Below are positions 28,713 to 36,465 of a DNA stretch of 52,106 nucleotides, piece after piece (the stretch's first letter is position 1; each line of letters begins with the position of its first letter). The notes beneath the pieces are model-generated. The model ran no database searches. It was not told where the DNA came from and saw only the letters and a program-made list of their open reading frames with translations. This DNA comes from Deltaproteobacteria bacterium. Lineage in GTDB: Bacteria > Myxococcota > XYA12-FULL-58-9. The stretch is taken from the NCBI GenBank assembly GCA_016218825.1, contig JACRCV010000089.1, forward strand, positions 1 to 52,106, in the 5' to 3' direction. Made by a program: the position numbers and the translations under genes.

Positions 28713-29600
28713 GTGCCAATCGACCCGTATCGTTTCCTCGACTTCGCGACCCGCGAGATCATCAAGGCGTGGGTGAGCCGTGAGGCCCGCCACCCCCAGC
28801 CAATCCCGTGGACACCGATGGCCAAGCCGCTGTCCGAATGCACGGTCGCGCTGGTGTCGACCGCGGGCGTGGCGCGCCGCGACGACCGCCCGTTCGACCA
28901 GGAGCGCGAGCGCCGGGATCCGTGGTGGAGCGATCCCACGCACCGCTTGATCCCCCACGGCGCGACCGAGCGCGACGTGCGCCTCTACCACCTGCACATC
29001 GACACCCGCTTCGGCGCGCGCGACCTCGACGTCGTGTTGCCGATGCGGCGCCTCGGGGAGCTGGCGACAGCAGGCTACGTCGGGCGCGCCGCCGACACCC
29101 ACTACTCGATCGTGGGCTATCAGCTCCGAACCGAGGTCCTCGAGCGCGAGACCGCACCGGCGATGCTCGCGGACATGAAGAAGCGCGGCGTCGACGCGGT
29201 CGTGTTGATACCTGCCTGATCGTTCTGCTGCCGGTCCGTGGGACTGGTACAGAGGGTGCTGGAGGCCGGCGGCCTGTCGACCGTGTCGCTGTCGATGGTC
29301 CCGGCGTTCACCCGCTCAAGCGGTGTGCCGCGCCTGGCCGGCATCGCCTATCCGATGTCCCGGCCGATGGGGCGGCCGGGAGACGCCGAGGGTCAGCGAT
29401 CGGTGTTGCGCGCCGTTCTCCAGGTGCTCGACGCCGCGAAGACCCCGGGCACCTACGTCGAGCTGCCGTTCACCTGGCCCCAAACTCCGGCGCAGGCGCG
29501 CAGAGAGGCCACCGTGCGTCCGCCGATCTACAAGCTCCTGACCCGCAAGCCCTGGCTGCTGCGGAAGCTGTACGCCGGCGAGATCCCGGAGGAGCGTTGA
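28713..29600 (+). CDS. Selenoprotein candidate: glycine/betaine/sarcosine/D-proline reductase selenoprotein-B family, in-frame TGA = Sec169
   Basis: The GTG at 28713 (AGAGG 6 nt upstream) opens a frame that meets TGA at 29217-29219 and continues in the same frame to a true stop at 29598-29600, giving 295 residues with Sec at 169. The N-terminal part (PIPWTPMAKPLSECTVALVSTAGV, RRDPWWSDPTHRLIP, YHLHIDTR, DLDVVLPMRRLGEL, HYSIVGYQ) matches this family as I know it from proteobacteria. Around the TGA the sequence is VVLIPA-U-SFCCRSVGLVQRVLEAGG. Relatives commonly read LVPxCPxCHQSVGL, so U takes the place of the first Cys of CxxC (UxxC). A SECIS-like hairpin follows. It is likely a cytosolic redox enzyme; its substrate is unknown. 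A nonsense mutation is the alternative. Confidence 0.85.
29228..29252 (+). promoter_or_regulatory. bSECIS-like hairpin for selenocysteine insertion
   Basis: Immediately 3' of the TGA, CCGGTCC (29231-29237) pairs fully with GGACTGG (29241-29247), with one G-U pair. The 3-nt loop is GTG. The stem is extended by CTG (29228-29230) with CAG (29250-29252) around a TA bulge. The loop lies 18 nt after the TGA and begins with G; bacterial SECIS elements typically have 16-37 nt spacing and a G in the first loop positions. Confidence 0.7.
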
Positions 29601-29762
29601 GCCGCGAGCGCAGCGCGGGCTCGAACCCGGGCCATCCCGGTGTCGTGCCGGTGTCGGTGTCGATCACCGGGAGGTCGTCGGCAACGTCCGGCTGCGGGTG
29701 GCGTGGCTCGTAGGAGGCGTCGAGCTCGGCGGGGCACCTGCCGCTTTGCCCCCGGTCAGGGG

Positions 29763-29792
29763 TTGATAGTCGAGACGGCATCGAGGCAGTAT
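29763..29792 (+). promoter_or_regulatory. Possible promoter of beta-helix lipoprotein gene
   Basis: TTGATA (29763-29768) and CAGTAT (29787-29792) are spaced by 18 bp, about 49 bp before the ATG at 29841. This is only a moderate match. The rest of the 240-bp spacer after the selenoprotein gene holds nothing recognisable. Confidence 0.3.
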
Positions 29793-29840
29793 CGCGGTCA
29801 GGCACGTGCGTGTCGGCGCTGGCATCGGCGGAGGTCCTTG

Positions 29841-31532
29841 ATGGCGAAGACCGCGTTCGGGATCTGGGTCGCAGCCGCTTCGTTGTACGGCTGCACGCAG
29901 AGGACCGCGTTGGTGGTGAGAGTCAGCGCGGGCGACCACGACACCGTCCGCGACGATTCCGGCACGGACGAGCCTGACGGCGGAGCGGACGACACCGGCG
30001 CCGGCGATCCGCTGGATCGGTGCGACGGCGTGGTGTGCACAGCCGTCGATGCCTGCCACGAGGCGGGCGCCTGCGATCCGGCCACAGGGCTCTGCGCGAA
30101 TCCGGAGAAGCCGAACGGCGCGAGCTGCGACGACGGGGACTACTGCACGGAGGGGGACTCGTGTCAGAGCCGCGTCTGCACCGGCACCCCGATCCCGTTC
30201 TGTCTCTCCGTCGTATTCGTCGACGCCCAGGCCGCCGGCCGCGGCGACGGCACCACCTGGCAGGACGCGTTCGTGCGGTTGCAGGACGCGCTGGCGCTGA
30301 GCACCGCCGGCACCTTCGTATGGGTGGCCGGCGGTGTCTACGTTCCCGGCACGGCCAAGACCGACACCTTCCAAGTGGGCGGCGGCGTGGAGATCTACGG
30401 CGGCTTCTCGGGCAGGGAGACGAACCTGGACCAGCGCTCCTGGTCGGAGAATGTCACGGTGCTCAGTGGTGACGGCATCGGCAACGACGCCGGATTCGTC
30501 GGCAACGAGGAGAACGTCTACCACGTTGTGACCCCGGGCGGTGATTTCGCCGTCATCGACGGCTTCACCATCACCGGCGGCAACGCCGACTATCCGACCT
30601 ACGACCCCGCTCTCGGCCGGGACCGGGGCGGCGGCATCTACAACACCGAGCGCCTGACGGTGCGCCACTGCACCATCGTCACCAACAACGCCGCCTACAT
30701 GGGCGGCGCCATGTACTCCGCCGGCGCCGCGACCATCAGGAGCTCGGTCTTCAGGAACAACGTCGCCGCCAACGGTGGCGCGCTCGCCACCTTCGCCGAC
30801 CACACGATCGTGGATGGCCTGTTTCTCAACAACTCGGCCAGCAGCGGCGGCGCCCTGTTCCACTCGGGCGAGACATGGGTCGCCAGCCGCGTGACGAGCT
30901 GCCGGTTCATCGGCAACCGAGCGAGCTACAGAGGCGGGGCGGTCTTGGTGACGAACACCACCCCGCTCTTCGTAGGCTCGGTCTTCACCGGCAACCAGGC
31001 GAACGATAGGGGCGGCGCGGTACACACCGAATCAAACGGCCGCGACCGCTACGTGAACTGTACGTTCGCGAGCAATACCGCGGGGTGGGGCGGAGCCATC
31101 CGGTGCGACGACGTCGCGCCCACCCCCCATCCGATAATCGTCAACAGCGTGATCTGGAACAACGTCCCAGACGCCATCCCGGGCTGCAGCGCCGTCGCCA
31201 CCATCTCGTACACCTGCGTGCAGGGCGGCGCCGCCGGCACCGGAAACATCGTCGGCGATCCGCTGTTCGCCGACAGCAACGGCACCGACAATCTCCCCGG
31301 CACGCTGGATGACGATGCCCGCCTGACCGCTGCCTCCCCCGCCATCGACGCGTGCGACAACTCCGCTCTGCCCGCGGATCTGAGCGACCTGGACGGCGAC
31401 GGCAACATGGCGGAGCCGGTGTCTCTGGATCTCGACGGCTCACCCCGCTTCGTGGAGGTGTTGGGCGCGGGCGCCACCGGCAACGGCACGCCGCCGTTGT
31501 GTGATCTGGGTGCATACGAGCTCGTGCCCTGA
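29841..31532 (+). CDS. Parallel beta-helix surface lipoprotein (polymorphic-OMP-like repeats)
   Basis: The ATG at 29841 has GGAGGT 5 nt upstream, giving 563 residues. Lipobox SLYGC|TQ is near residue 18. An Asp-rich linker and Cys-rich DGVVC/DYCTEGDSCQS segments (about 55-115) follow. The main body is right-handed beta-helix with GGAMYS, GGALAT, GGALFH, GGAVLV and GGAVHT turns and FxxN strands, as in polymorphic outer-membrane proteins and pectate-lyase folds. The C-terminal GDPLFAD ... DLGAYEL motif marks the choice-of-anchor-Q type end. It is probably displayed on the cell surface; the ligand is unknown. Confidence 0.85.
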   Translation: MAKTAFGIWVAAASLYGCTQRTALVVRVSAGDHDTVRDDSGTDEPDGGADDTGAGDPLDRCDGVVCTAVDACHEAGACDPATGLCANPEKPNGASCDDGDYCTEGDSCQSRVCTGTPIPFCLSVVFVDAQAAGRGDGTTWQDAFVRLQDALALSTAGTFVWVAGGVYVPGTAKTDTFQVGGGVEIYGGFSGRETNLDQRSWSENVTVLSGDGIGNDAGFVGNEENVYHVVTPGGDFAVIDGFTITGGNADYPTYDPALGRDRGGGIYNTERLTVRHCTIVTNNAAYMGGAMYSAGAATIRSSVFRNNVAANGGALATFADHTIVDGLFLNNSASSGGALFHSGETWVASRVTSCRFIGNRASYRGGAVLVTNTTPLFVGSVFTGNQANDRGGAVHTESNGRDRYVNCTFASNTAGWGGAIRCDDVAPTPHPIIVNSVIWNNVPDAIPGCSAVATISYTCVQGGAAGTGNIVGDPLFADSNGTDNLPGTLDDDARLTAASPAIDACDNSALPADLSDLDGDGNMAEPVSLDLDGSPRFVEVLGAGATGNGTPPLCDLGAYELVP

Positions 31533-31935
31533 GCGCCGTGCCCTGAGCGCCGGAGCTCCTCGAGAAGTAGCGTCAGTGACGTCCTCGGGGTGGTTTGCGA
31601 GCCCGGCAAGGCCGGCCGTTGAGCGGGCCGTCATTGACAACTGCGATCCGGCAGTGGCATCTTCCCTCTTCCTTCGAAGCGCTACGGACTCAACCACCGT
31701 CCGCACTGAACCCGGGGCACCCTCCCCAAGGACGGGGAGAACCTCGTAGTCACGTCCCACGTTCGCGGTCCCGGACGGAAGCCCATGATGGGCCACCGAC
31801 ACGGTCCGTCCCAGTGGCTACCCCACCCGCCGGCGCCCGACGCGCGCCCCGGTGTAGGGCCCAGCATCGAACATGCACCGATCCCCCTCGCTGACGTCCA
31901 GTCGAGAGGTCCGGTTGCCGATAGGAGAAGCAGGT
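31533..31935. other. 403-bp intergenic region upstream of decaheme cytochrome
   Basis: No gene is seen. It contains several potential RNA hairpins: CTCCCC-N6-GGGGAG (31722-31739), which may end the preceding transcript although it lacks a U-tract, and a nested structure at 31773-31819 described separately. I searched by eye for a c-di-GMP (GEMM) riboswitch, sometimes found before multiheme cytochromes, and did not find its conserved core. Confidence 0.5.
31773..31819 (+). promoter_or_regulatory. Structured leader candidate upstream of cytochrome gene
   Basis: GGACGGA (31773-31779) pairs perfectly with TCCGTCC (31805-31811) and encloses a second hairpin GCCCA-TGA-TGGGC (31781-31793). An alternative helix GCCAC (31792-31796) with GTGGC (31815-31819) competes with both. 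Mutually exclusive pairings are typical of regulated leaders, but no ligand class is recognisable. Confidence 0.35.
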
Positions 31936-34900
31936 ATGAAGCGCAGGAGTAGCCTTGGAGTCGTTGCAGGGATTGGCGCGCTGGCGACGGTGCTCACTCT
32001 GGTCGCGGCTTGCGAAGGGCCCACCGGCCCGCTGGGCGCACCCGGCGAGAGTAGCTCCTGCACCGTGACCGACAACGGCGACGGCACCAAGACCGTGGCC
32101 TGCAGCGACGGCACCAGCGTGACCGTCGCCGACGCCACGCCGTGCACCGTGACCGACAACCTCGACGGCAGCAAGACCATCACCTGCGCGGACGGCACGA
32201 GCGTGACCGTCACCGACGGCCAGACCGGCGGCTCCTGCCAGGTCGTCGACAACGGCGACGGCACCAAGACCGTCACCTGCGATGACGGCACCGAGGTCAC
32301 CGTGACCGACGGCAGCAATGCGACCCTCGACCTCGGCATCGCCAACTTCCACGGCGTCGACACCCTCGTCGCCGGGCAGCTCGCGACGGCCGGCCGGTTC
32401 ATCGCGACCGCGTCCGTGACCGGCGTGACCGCCGACGTGGCGGGCGTCGTCACCGTGAACTTCACCGTGGCCAACGTGAAGGGCGACCCGGTGCTCGACG
32501 TCCTGAGTCCGAGCTTCACCATCGCCAAGCTCGTGGCGCCGGTCACCGGCGAGGCCTCGAGCCATTGGGTGCCTTACGTCAACAAGACCGTCACCGTCTC
32601 GGGCTCCGCGAACGGCGACTGGCCGAACCCGGACGGCACCGCCGCGAACCAGGGCACACGCGAACGAAACGGGACCCTCGTCAATCACGGCGACGGGTCG
32701 TACACCTACGTCTTTGCCACGAACCTCGCGACCGCCGCAGTCGGCGGCACCCCCATCGGTTACGACCGCAGCCTGACCCACCGGGTGGTCGTGATCATGG
32801 GTGGCGCCAGCGGCCCCACGGCGACCGCGTACACCGACTTCGTGCCCGCGGGCGGCGCCCTACCGCTGACGCGCGACATCGTTCGCACCGAGGACTGCCA
32901 GGCGTGCCACGGCTGGGACTTCCATGGTCACTCGGGCGATCGCCGGATCGTCGAGTCCTGCGTCGCTTGTCACGCACCGGCGAGCTCGGATCCGTACGGC
33001 GGCGAGTCCCTCGACATGACCGTCATGATCCACAAGATCCACGCGGGCGGCGAGCTCGCGAGCATTCCGGGAGCCGACGGCACGGTCTGGGACAACCCGG
33101 CCACCCTCGACGACGAGATGACCGACAACGGCCAGTACGCCCTCTGGAACGAAGGGAGCAAGCGCGAGTGGTGGAAGGCCGGGTTCCCGGCGATCCTCGA
33201 CAACTGCACCAAGTGCCACAGCGGCCGGGGCGTCGACGCCGACAACTGGAAGAACAAGCCGTCGCGTGCGGCGTGCGGCTCCTGCCACGACCTCACCTGG
33301 TTCGGCGCCCTGGCGACGGTGCCCGCCGGCATGGTCGCGCACTCGGGTGGCGAGCAGGACAACGACACGGTCTGCACTTCCTGCCACCAGAACACCAACG
33401 ACCCGATCGTGCCGCCGGTCCAGGTGCCGATCCCGACCGCCCACGACTTCATGAACAACGATCCGCGCTCCGTCGCCGAGTACATCCCGGAGATGTCGAT
33501 CGTGAACCTGCCGACGCACGTGGCGTCCGATCCGTACGGTGCCGGCCAGTACTTCGCGCCCGGCGACCCGGCGCCGATCGTCCGCATCCGCCTGCGCGAC
33601 AATGAGGGCGCCAACAAAGGCCAGTACATGACCGGCTGGGGCACGACCTTCTTCCGCGCCGACGACACGGTGAACGCCGTGCCGCCGGGTGACGGGCCCG
33701 AGAGCTGCACCTGTGGCAACGGCGTCCTGCCGAATGACACCGATCCCGCTTGCGACCTCGACGAGACGTGCGACGAGGACAAGGACGGCAAGTTCACCAA
33801 CTCCACCTTCTTCGTCTACGGTCCGCGCGCCCTGCGTAGCCCGGTGCTCACCTACAAGGCGCGGGCGCTCATGCGCGCCACCCAGCCCGGCCCGTTCTCG
33901 TTTGCCGTGAGCTCGACCACCCTGTCGTATGCGGCGGCGCTCAGCCTGATCGTGGACGGCGGCCAGACCGTCTACGACCGGAACCCCACCGGCGGCGACG
34001 TGCCGCGCGCCGGCGCCTTCAGCGTGCCGATCTTCCAGAGCGGCGCGAGCGGCGAGGTCCAGACCGCCGGGGCCACGACCACGACCTTCGTGGACGCCGC
34101 GCAGGCGAGAAACTTGAGCCAATCCGGCGAGGTCACCTGGCGCGACGACCAGTACGCCGGCTGGTGGATCACCTTCACCGACAACAGCGTGCCGGGCGCC
34201 TCGAAGTCGAGCGCGCAGATCAAGAGCAACGTCGGCGCGACCGTCACCTTGATGGCGGCCAACACCATGGTGAGCAACGGCCACATCATCACCTACACGA
34301 TGAACGCGGTCTCGGGGACCTACAGCGGCAAGGCCGACACCACCGGCACGCTCACGACCCTGACGGACAGCACGGCGCGCTGGGTCACCGACCGCTTCAA
34401 GGGCTTCACGCTGACGATCATCGACGGCGCCGGGAGCGCGAGCCCGCGCTCGGCCCTGGTGACGGGCAACACCGCGGACACCCTGACCCTGGCCACGTCC
34501 TTGAGCGTGGCCACCGACAACACGTCGGTCTACATGCTGACGCCGATCTCCACCGCCTCCGCCTCGGCGTCGACGCCGGATACGGCCTCGGTGACCACGG
34601 ACGAGCTCATCACCCTGTTCTCGGCCGTGCCGGCGTTCCAGGCGCGCGCCATCGCCTACAAGGAGACCAACTACCTGGGCGCGACGCTCTCGGCGACGCT
34701 GAGCTACAGCAACGACGCGCCCATCAACGTCGGTGACACCCAGATCCTCATCACCGCGGGCACCGCGATCGAAGGGCCCGCCAGCGGCAACCTGATCCTC
34801 GACAGCGGCACGGTCGACGAGGAGATCGTCGGCTACACGAGCTACGTCAACCCGTCGAGCGGCAACTCCTACTTCATCCTCGGCGGCACCAACTTCACCG

Positions 34901-36465
34901 GCGGCAAGACCGCCGCGCAGGTGGCGATCGGCTCGAGCAGCTTCAACGTCGCCGCGGACTCGGGTTGGAAGTTCCCCACGTCGGGGACGGTGACCTTCGA
35001 GCCGGGGACCGCCAACGCGGAGAGCGTCGCCTTCTCGGCGCGCACCGGCGATACCATCACCCTGGACGCCGCCACCACCCTGCTGCACGGCGCCAGCGCC
35101 ACCAGCACCGTGACCGTGTGGATCACCAATGGGAGCACCGGCGCGACGCGGGTCCACGCGCCCAAGGGCGCGATGCGGCTCTTTGGCGCCGGCGTCGGGC
35201 CGTTGGCGGGGACGACCCTGCCGGCTGGAGTCATCTACTTCTCGGTCGCCGCCGGCACCGGGATCCAATACCCGGCGACCGGCACGGTCGCCAACGGCAT
35301 GGCGCTCGTCATCGACCGGCTGCTCCTCCCCAGCGGGGCGCTGAACACCGGGGTGTCGGAGACCGTGGAGTGGACTCGCAAGGGCGACGTCTTCAGGATC
35401 ACGAGCCCGGCAGGCGGGACGGCGCTGGCCCACAGCACGTCGCCGACCCTCTTCTTCACGGTGCCGAACGCGTTCACGCTGCGGAGCCGCAACCGTGGCA
35501 GCTTCTTCAGCATCCAGGCGCAGGCCAGCACCCTGACCACGATCCCCACGAGCTTGTCGGCGACCAACCTGGTGTTCCAGGGCGAAGCCCTCGGCGCCTA
35601 CCCGGTGCACGTCCTCGGCAGCAGCACGGCGGGCGCCACCAGCACCACCGGCACCGCCAGCACGGTGTCGGTGTCGCTGGCCAAACAGACCGACGCGACC
35701 AAGGATGACCCGCTGACGGTGTTCGGCGCGGACGCGACGTCGGAGTATGTCGAGGTGAGACTCGACCCGGTCGACGACCTCCTGCCCGGCACCTACATCG
35801 CGAAGATCGAGTTCGCGGACCGCGGCGCCCTCACCTCGCCCGACGTCTACAAGACCCCGACCGTGTCGCGCATCAAGTTCAACGTGAAGAGCGGCGTCGA
35901 GGAGCTGCCGCCGGCGGCCAACTGCGGCTCGTGCCACACCGCCGGCGAGGACGATCCGGCCAAGCAGAACGTCGGCGCCGCCGATGATGATCAGGATGGC
36001 GTGCAGATGGCCGGCTTCGTCCTCGACCAGATGCGCCACCACAAGCTCTTCAACAACACCGCCGTCGACCTCTGCGGCGCCTGTCACGACTACCAGGCGC
36101 AGACCGCGACCGGCGAGTGGCAGGGCGCGCGGCCCATCTCGCGCCGCGTGCACGCAATCCACAACGGCGCCAACCTCACCTACCCGCTGGCGACGGTCGG
36201 CTACGGCAACGGCGACCCGATCCCGGGCCGCAACTGGGACATCACGCTGCCGCAGGACGTGCGCAACTGCGACGCGACCTGCCACCCGGCGAGCGGTCCC
36301 AACAAGACCAGCGGCACCTGGCAGACCAACCCGAACCGCGTGGCCTGTGGCGCCTGCCACGACTCCGATTCGGCGCAGGCGCACCTGAAGTCCATGGTCT
36401 ACGACCCCACGCCGGCCGCGCCCTACAACGGCGACGAGGTCGAGGCTTGCGGGAACTGTCACTAG
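31936..36465 (+). CDS. OmcA/MtrC-type decaheme c-type cytochrome lipoprotein, very large
   Basis: The ATG at 31936 has AGGAG 8 nt upstream, giving 1509 residues. Lipobox LTLVAAC|EG is followed by three repeats of TVTDNGDGTKTV..CDGTSVTV. Five CXXCH hemes lie at residues 321, 342, 424, 447 and 480. After an 845-residue beta-rich insert come hemes at 1330 and 1380, an unusual CX3CH (CDATCH) at 1445, then 1471 and 1505; the last His is the final residue. The 5+5 arrangement equals domains II and IV of MtrC/OmcA, which are only about half this length. Predicted role: surface electron transfer to minerals or other acceptors. No porin or periplasmic MtrA partner is in the window; the isomerase gene follows after 27 nt. 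Confidence 0.92.
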   Translation: MKRRSSLGVVAGIGALATVLTLVAACEGPTGPLGAPGESSSCTVTDNGDGTKTVACSDGTSVTVADATPCTVTDNLDGSKTITCADGTSVTVTDGQTGGSCQVVDNGDGTKTVTCDDGTEVTVTDGSNATLDLGIANFHGVDTLVAGQLATAGRFIATASVTGVTADVAGVVTVNFTVANVKGDPVLDVLSPSFTIAKLVAPVTGEASSHWVPYVNKTVTVSGSANGDWPNPDGTAANQGTRERNGTLVNHGDGSYTYVFATNLATAAVGGTPIGYDRSLTHRVVVIMGGASGPTATAYTDFVPAGGALPLTRDIVRTEDCQACHGWDFHGHSGDRRIVESCVACHAPASSDPYGGESLDMTVMIHKIHAGGELASIPGADGTVWDNPATLDDEMTDNGQYALWNEGSKREWWKAGFPAILDNCTKCHSGRGVDADNWKNKPSRAACGSCHDLTWFGALATVPAGMVAHSGGEQDNDTVCTSCHQNTNDPIVPPVQVPIPTAHDFMNNDPRSVAEYIPEMSIVNLPTHVASDPYGAGQYFAPGDPAPIVRIRLRDNEGANKGQYMTGWGTTFFRADDTVNAVPPGDGPESCTCGNGVLPNDTDPACDLDETCDEDKDGKFTNSTFFVYGPRALRSPVLTYKARALMRATQPGPFSFAVSSTTLSYAAALSLIVDGGQTVYDRNPTGGDVPRAGAFSVPIFQSGASGEVQTAGATTTTFVDAAQARNLSQSGEVTWRDDQYAGWWITFTDNSVPGASKSSAQIKSNVGATVTLMAANTMVSNGHIITYTMNAVSGTYSGKADTTGTLTTLTDSTARWVTDRFKGFTLTIIDGAGSASPRSALVTGNTADTLTLATSLSVATDNTSVYMLTPISTASASASTPDTASVTTDELITLFSAVPAFQARAIAYKETNYLGATLSATLSYSNDAPINVGDTQILITAGTAIEGPASGNLILDSGTVDEEIVGYTSYVNPSSGNSYFILGGTNFTGGKTAAQVAIGSSSFNVAADSGWKFPTSGTVTFEPGTANAESVAFSARTGDTITLDAATTLLHGASATSTVTVWITNGSTGATRVHAPKGAMRLFGAGVGPLAGTTLPAGVIYFSVAAGTGIQYPATGTVANGMALVIDRLLLPSGALNTGVSETVEWTRKGDVFRITSPAGGTALAHSTSPTLFFTVPNAFTLRSRNRGSFFSIQAQASTLTTIPTSLSATNLVFQGEALGAYPVHVLGSSTAGATSTTGTASTVSVSLAKQTDATKDDPLTVFGADATSEYVEVRLDPVDDLLPGTYIAKIEFADRGALTSPDVYKTPTVSRIKFNVKSGVEELPPAANCGSCHTAGEDDPAKQNVGAADDDQDGVQMAGFVLDQMRHHKLFNNTAVDLCGACHDYQAQTATGEWQGARPISRRVHAIHNGANLTYPLATVGYGNGDPIPGRNWDITLPQDVRNCDATCHPASGPNKTSGTWQTNPNRVACGACHDSDSAQAHLKSMVYDPTPAAPYNGDEVEACGNCH

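Follow-up and report, generated by a model that had tools for sequence, protein, structure and literature searches.

A PrdB-like gene with an in-frame TGA, very probably read as selenocysteine, in a draft genome of the Myxococcota

PrdB is the selenoprotein subunit of D-proline reductase. PrdB-type selenoproteins with a UxxC motif are on record from the Sargasso Sea (2005; PMC1088965) and from the Global Ocean Sampling data (2008; PMC2398784), and a proline-reductase-type selenoprotein was reported from Anaeromyxobacter in 2006 (PMC1794560). Here we describe a related gene on a stretch of 52,106 nucleotides, hereafter the window, from a Deltaproteobacteria bacterium of the phylum Myxococcota (GenBank assembly GCA_016218825.1, contig JACRCV010000089.1), whose draft genome amounts to 6.5 Mb in 121 contigs and is 96.5% complete. 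Judged by its sequence, the gene is a divergent relative of PrdB within the GRDB/PF07355 superfamily, and the single TGA inside its frame is very probably read as selenocysteine (Sec), giving one selenoprotein of 295 residues. The features of the locus are collected in Table 1.

Table 1. Positions in the window of the PrdB-like gene, its in-frame TGA and the hairpin that follows
Feature	Position	Strand	Remarks
PrdB-like selenoprotein gene (probable)	28713..29600	+	GTG start, TGA stop; 295 residues including one Sec
In-frame TGA, putative Sec169 codon	29217..29219	+	TGA or Cys at the column in relatives; Sec machinery in the genome
Cys172 codon TGC, UxxC partner of Sec169	29226..29228	+	Invariant in the 20-sequence alignment
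SECIS-like hairpin	29225..29252	+	Upper stem 9 bp, lower stem 3 bp, apical loop
Hairpin upper stem, 9 bp	29229-29237 with 29241-29249	+	MFE fold
Hairpin apical loop GUG	29238-29240	+	MFE fold
Hairpin lower stem, 3 bp	29225-29227 with 29250-29252	+	MFE fold

Reading frame and family of the gene

When the in-frame TGA is left open in translation, the product consists of 168 residues, U and 126 further residues up to the stop TGA at 29598-29600, and reads VPIDPYRF...VVLIPA-U-SFCCRSVGLVQRV...GEIPEER, with U169-S-F-C172 as the motif around the TGA. The coordinates, the frame and the single TGA at 29217-29219 agree with a preliminary description made from the sequence alone, although the 127 codons that it counted after the TGA come to 126 sense codons in the translation. 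The GTG start is backed by the aligned starts of two relatives, L025 (MPIDSYRYLDFA) and L022 (MAIDSYRFLDFA). An ordinary list of open reading frames divides the gene into two (28713-29219, 168 aa; 29238-29600, 120 aa), just as had been foreseen for standard tools. Third-position GC is similar on the two sides of the TGA, 0.905 and 0.889. The length of the open frame by itself is weak evidence, since at 71% GC a local Markov model keeps a run of 126 codons open in 32% of cases.

The preliminary description had assigned the gene to the selenoprotein B family, and this is right at the level of the superfamily, for with PF07355 the joined protein scores 31 bits (E 2e-7), above the Pfam gathering score of 22; the closest curated family is PrdB and not glycine reductase protein B. 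The best NCBIfam match is PrdB TIGR04483 (E 1.3e-39), at 136.1 bits where the equivalog cut-off is 300, and it spans residues 28-255 and thus crosses the TGA. TIGR01918, which has a cut-off of 65 bits, gives 37 bits over model positions 221-413 only, which is not a full-length match. The PF07355 and TIGR04483 models were also matched by every one of the 17 family members scanned.

Relatives are present in 30 of the 195 genomes of the phylum that were searched, the window's own included, and outside the phylum they comprise clostridial prdB genes and one Roseomonas protein with Cys. The closest of them, L025, comes from another family of the phylum; over 293 residues it shares 74% identity with the window protein, and the same codon is a TGA. 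Identity to clostridial PrdB is about 30-34%. Asp104, Pro110, Gly187 and Arg207 are invariant in the alignment that includes PrdB, and the Sec/Cys position of UxxC aligns with that of Peptoclostridium and Terrisporobacter PrdB. A sequence search of solved structures found no relative.

Decoding of the in-frame TGA

The column of residue 169 holds UGA or Cys in all 20 aligned sequences and nothing else. In the loci of the same phylum that were read, TGA occupies it in nearly all (UPFC, UPVC, UPLC, UGTC, URLC), and L044 and L049 have Cys (CRMC). Outside the phylum, the Roseomonas protein has Cys as well (CPVCHQ). Homologues had been expected to show CPxCHQSVGL at this place; the Roseomonas motif begins in this way, but the usual residue in the phylum is UGA rather than Cys. 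The proposed UxxC motif is borne out by the TGA that most relatives carry and by C172, which the alignment retains throughout. The two Cys loci of the phylum look like a Sec-to-Cys (or Cys-to-Sec) conversion inside it.

Selection was compared across the TGA between the window gene and L025. The dN/dS ratio is 0.23 upstream and 0.14 downstream, so that purifying selection acts on the codons past the TGA no less strongly than on the preceding ones. After the TGA the two other forward frames have pN/pS > 1, and synonymous change exceeds nonsynonymous change in the frame of the gene and in one reverse frame that shares its variable third positions, and in no other.

Bacterial SECIS (bSECIS) elements are described by a loop of 3-9 nt, an upper stem of 4-16 bp, a G in the first two loop positions, a distance of 16-37 nt from the UGA and an MFE of at most -7.5 (PMC13188914). 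The hairpin behind the in-frame TGA agrees with all of these (loop GUG, 9-bp stem, 18 nt spacing, -20.5 kcal/mol), and for the 39 nt after the TGA the MFE of -20.5 kcal/mol compares with a shuffled mean of -11.6 (z -3.5). In this GC-rich window 18.6% of the 1008 TGAs satisfy the loose bSECIS rules and 0.4% have an equally strong hairpin, so that the one described here outranks 99.6% of all TGA triplets. Synonymous recodings that preserve the protein fold as well in 0.5% of cases, a result that is not significant for every relative singly. Among nine window-like sequences 96.8% of the stem cells are paired, against 46% for the best sliding-partner control, and three of the seven pairs are altered on both sides. 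In a second group of relatives the hairpin is displaced downstream by two to three bases, and a G-C pair is exchanged for C-G where two synonymous third positions face each other; in L044 and L049, the Cys homologues of this group, several stem pairs are broken. The hairpin thus appears to covary across relatives, on alignments that are short and hold few distinct changes.

The machinery that Sec would need is encoded in the same genome, as had been predicted. SelA (472 bits), a full-length SelB adjoining it (295 bits), SelD (378 bits; L018:1501-2430, contig C120) and tRNA-Sec (73 bits, anticodon TCA, also called tRNA-Sec (tca) by ARAGORN) all score above their cut-offs; a second tRNA-Sec match above cut-off is a tRNA-Ser. 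SelD has an in-frame TGA of its own (HCAGUASKI) and is itself a selenoprotein. An Rfam scan and ARAGORN returned nothing within the window, as expected because the tRNA-Sec lies on a different contig. Two observations had been named in advance as speaking against a selenoprotein, a residue other than Cys or Sec at the column and a lack of the Sec machinery, and neither was made: the 20 aligned homologues contain no such residue, and all four components were found in a genome that is 96.5% complete.

Could the gene simply be dead, an ancestral Cys codon (TGC/TGT) having mutated to TGA? Loss does occur in this subfamily, for the related loci L022, L023 and L048 are visibly shortened. We nevertheless reject a dead gene, because dN/dS is low past the TGA and the TGA codon is kept in L025, and we consider a pseudogene highly improbable: the same TGA persists across separate lineages whose proteins share 30-75% identity, the hairpin is retained with compensatory changes, and the genome possesses the Sec machinery.

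The AlphaFold2 model, built with 17 family members as input, consists of one domain that spans the TGA (pLDDT 91, pTM 0.91), in which strand 162-166 runs into the loop bearing U169 and helix 172-185 begins at C172. Comparison of this model with solved structures by Foldseek and VIA-align gave generic Rossmann-like matches only, none with Z >= 8, and no functional lead. The model bears on the possibility that 28713-29219 and 29238-29600 are two independently translated genes, which are exactly those that standard ORF calling yields, the second with a GTG 18 nt past the TGA. A split would cut the one predicted Rossmann-like domain and leave the second product without the strand that leads into the active site; moreover, PrdB-family models match both halves, and the Cys homologues are single proteins. 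Two separate genes are therefore about as improbable as a pseudogene.

Least probable of all is that UGA is reassigned genome-wide, for instance to Trp, or that a sequencing error has turned a Cys codon into TGA. It is true that TGC/TGT is one base from TGA and that the assembly is a draft, but the gene's own stop is a TGA near the end of homology, many species share the in-frame TGA in assemblies made independently, and either explanation would leave the SECIS-like hairpin unexplained. A general read-through code with UGA as Trp was rejected in particular, as relatives without UGA have Cys, never Trp, at the column.

The proposal of a probable selenoprotein is thus upheld by the TGA/Cys column, the Sec machinery, dN/dS past the TGA, the bSECIS-like hairpin and a fold predicted across the TGA. 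It is strongly supported, from sequence, that UGA codon 169 would be decoded as Sec by SelB and tRNA-Sec(UCA), and equally that the hairpin, which starts a few nucleotides past the UGA, would recruit SelB/tRNA-Sec. The product is modelled as a single alpha/beta domain with U169-x-x-C172 in the loop that joins a beta-strand to the next helix. From the UxxC arrangement, Sec169 would most likely be the nucleophile in a redox cycle that passes through a selenenylsulfide, with Cys172 as its resolving thiol.

Neighbouring genes and shortened relatives

Among the neighbours of the window gene are, upstream, a PMT_2 glycosyltransferase-like gene and, downstream, one with PMP-type repeats, which encodes a protein of 630 aa (29640-31529) and is followed by a gene for a multihaem MtrC/OmcA-like cytochrome of 1530 aa (31873-36462). 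No common neighbours were recognised among the window gene, L025 and L022. At 14 loci of the same phylum (L027, L032-L040, L042, L043, L045 and L052) a PrdB-like gene stands directly downstream of a Sec peroxiredoxin (TPVU; AhpC-TSA by Pfam) in which a TGA likewise stands in place of the peroxidatic Cys codon; this tandem of two selenoprotein genes is suggestive of a common function in peroxide or thiol redox chemistry. The literature searched, which does mention Prx/SelW and Prx-like/AhpD-like pairs, yielded no mention of a Prx/PrdB-like pair.

Three window-like relatives are shortened. L022 (2995-3713) lacks about 60 codons through an internal deletion, L023 (3001-3309) consists of the C-terminal third only, and L048/L060 is affected in that L048 lacks a middle piece. 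These cases hint at repeated loss or at assembly faults.

Function and comparison with known systems

In this 96.5% complete draft genome neither PrdA nor GrdA was matched, although either gene could lie in a gap; the same models find PrdA in Terrisporobacter (E 2e-296) and GrdA in the Peptoclostridium record. Because neither partner was found, the window gene is probably not a canonical subunit of D-proline or glycine reductase, and for the same reason, together with its motif, we moderately favour a stand-alone (orphan) selenol/thiol oxidoreductase. A possibility to which we give somewhat less than even weight is that the window gene, L025 and the shortened L022, L023 and L048 make up a selenoprotein subfamily of their own, patchy in its distribution, whose catalytic role has no connection with the amino-acid reductases, for example as a selenol-based reductant for an electrophile or peroxide. 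It is quite unlikely that the gene is a true PrdB of D-proline reductase working with a PrdA encoded elsewhere: TIGR04483 is its best curated family and it shares about 30-34% identity with clostridial PrdB, but the score stays far from the equivalog cut-off, no PrdA was found by a search that does find it in Terrisporobacter, and no prd genes were recognised among the nearest neighbours.

The probable selenoprotein reading corrects a gene that standard annotation would halve, and adds one more draft genome in which the selenocysteine machinery is complete. That no PrdA was matched in this genome, and that many of the relatives adjoin a Sec peroxiredoxin, is in keeping with the idea that a large share of the PrdB-like selenoproteins found beyond the clostridia do not serve as proline reductases.

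Among known systems, GrdB/GrdF/GrdH, protein B of the glycine, sarcosine and betaine reductases (PF07355, TIGR01917/01918), share with the window protein a distant homology in their C-terminal part; unlike them, the window protein has only 295 residues, with nothing to match the N-terminal half of the models, which are 431-435 residues long, and its genome yielded no GrdA partner. The PrdB-like proteins of the peroxiredoxin tandems belong to the same family, with Sec in UxxC and a SECIS-like hairpin, but they are about 32-38% identical to the window protein, have the motif URLCHRT, carry no extensions, show the shifted hairpin register of two to three bases and stand in tandem with a TxxU peroxiredoxin. 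PrdB itself (TIGR04483) and the marine-metagenome "PrdB" UxxC selenoproteins (PMC1088965, PMC2398784) are homologous over residues 28-255 of the window gene, and PrdB has Sec in UxxC at the same column and the same four invariant residues. The window gene differs from PrdB in falling far under the equivalog cut-off in a genome where no PrdA was found, in an N-terminal extension of about 28 residues that it has in common with L025, and in a C-terminal extension ending PPIxxLLxRKPWLLxxLYxGxIPE that recurs in L025, L022, L023 and L048. This kind of protein has been known since 2005, and the N- and C-terminal extensions are its sole unusual trait here.
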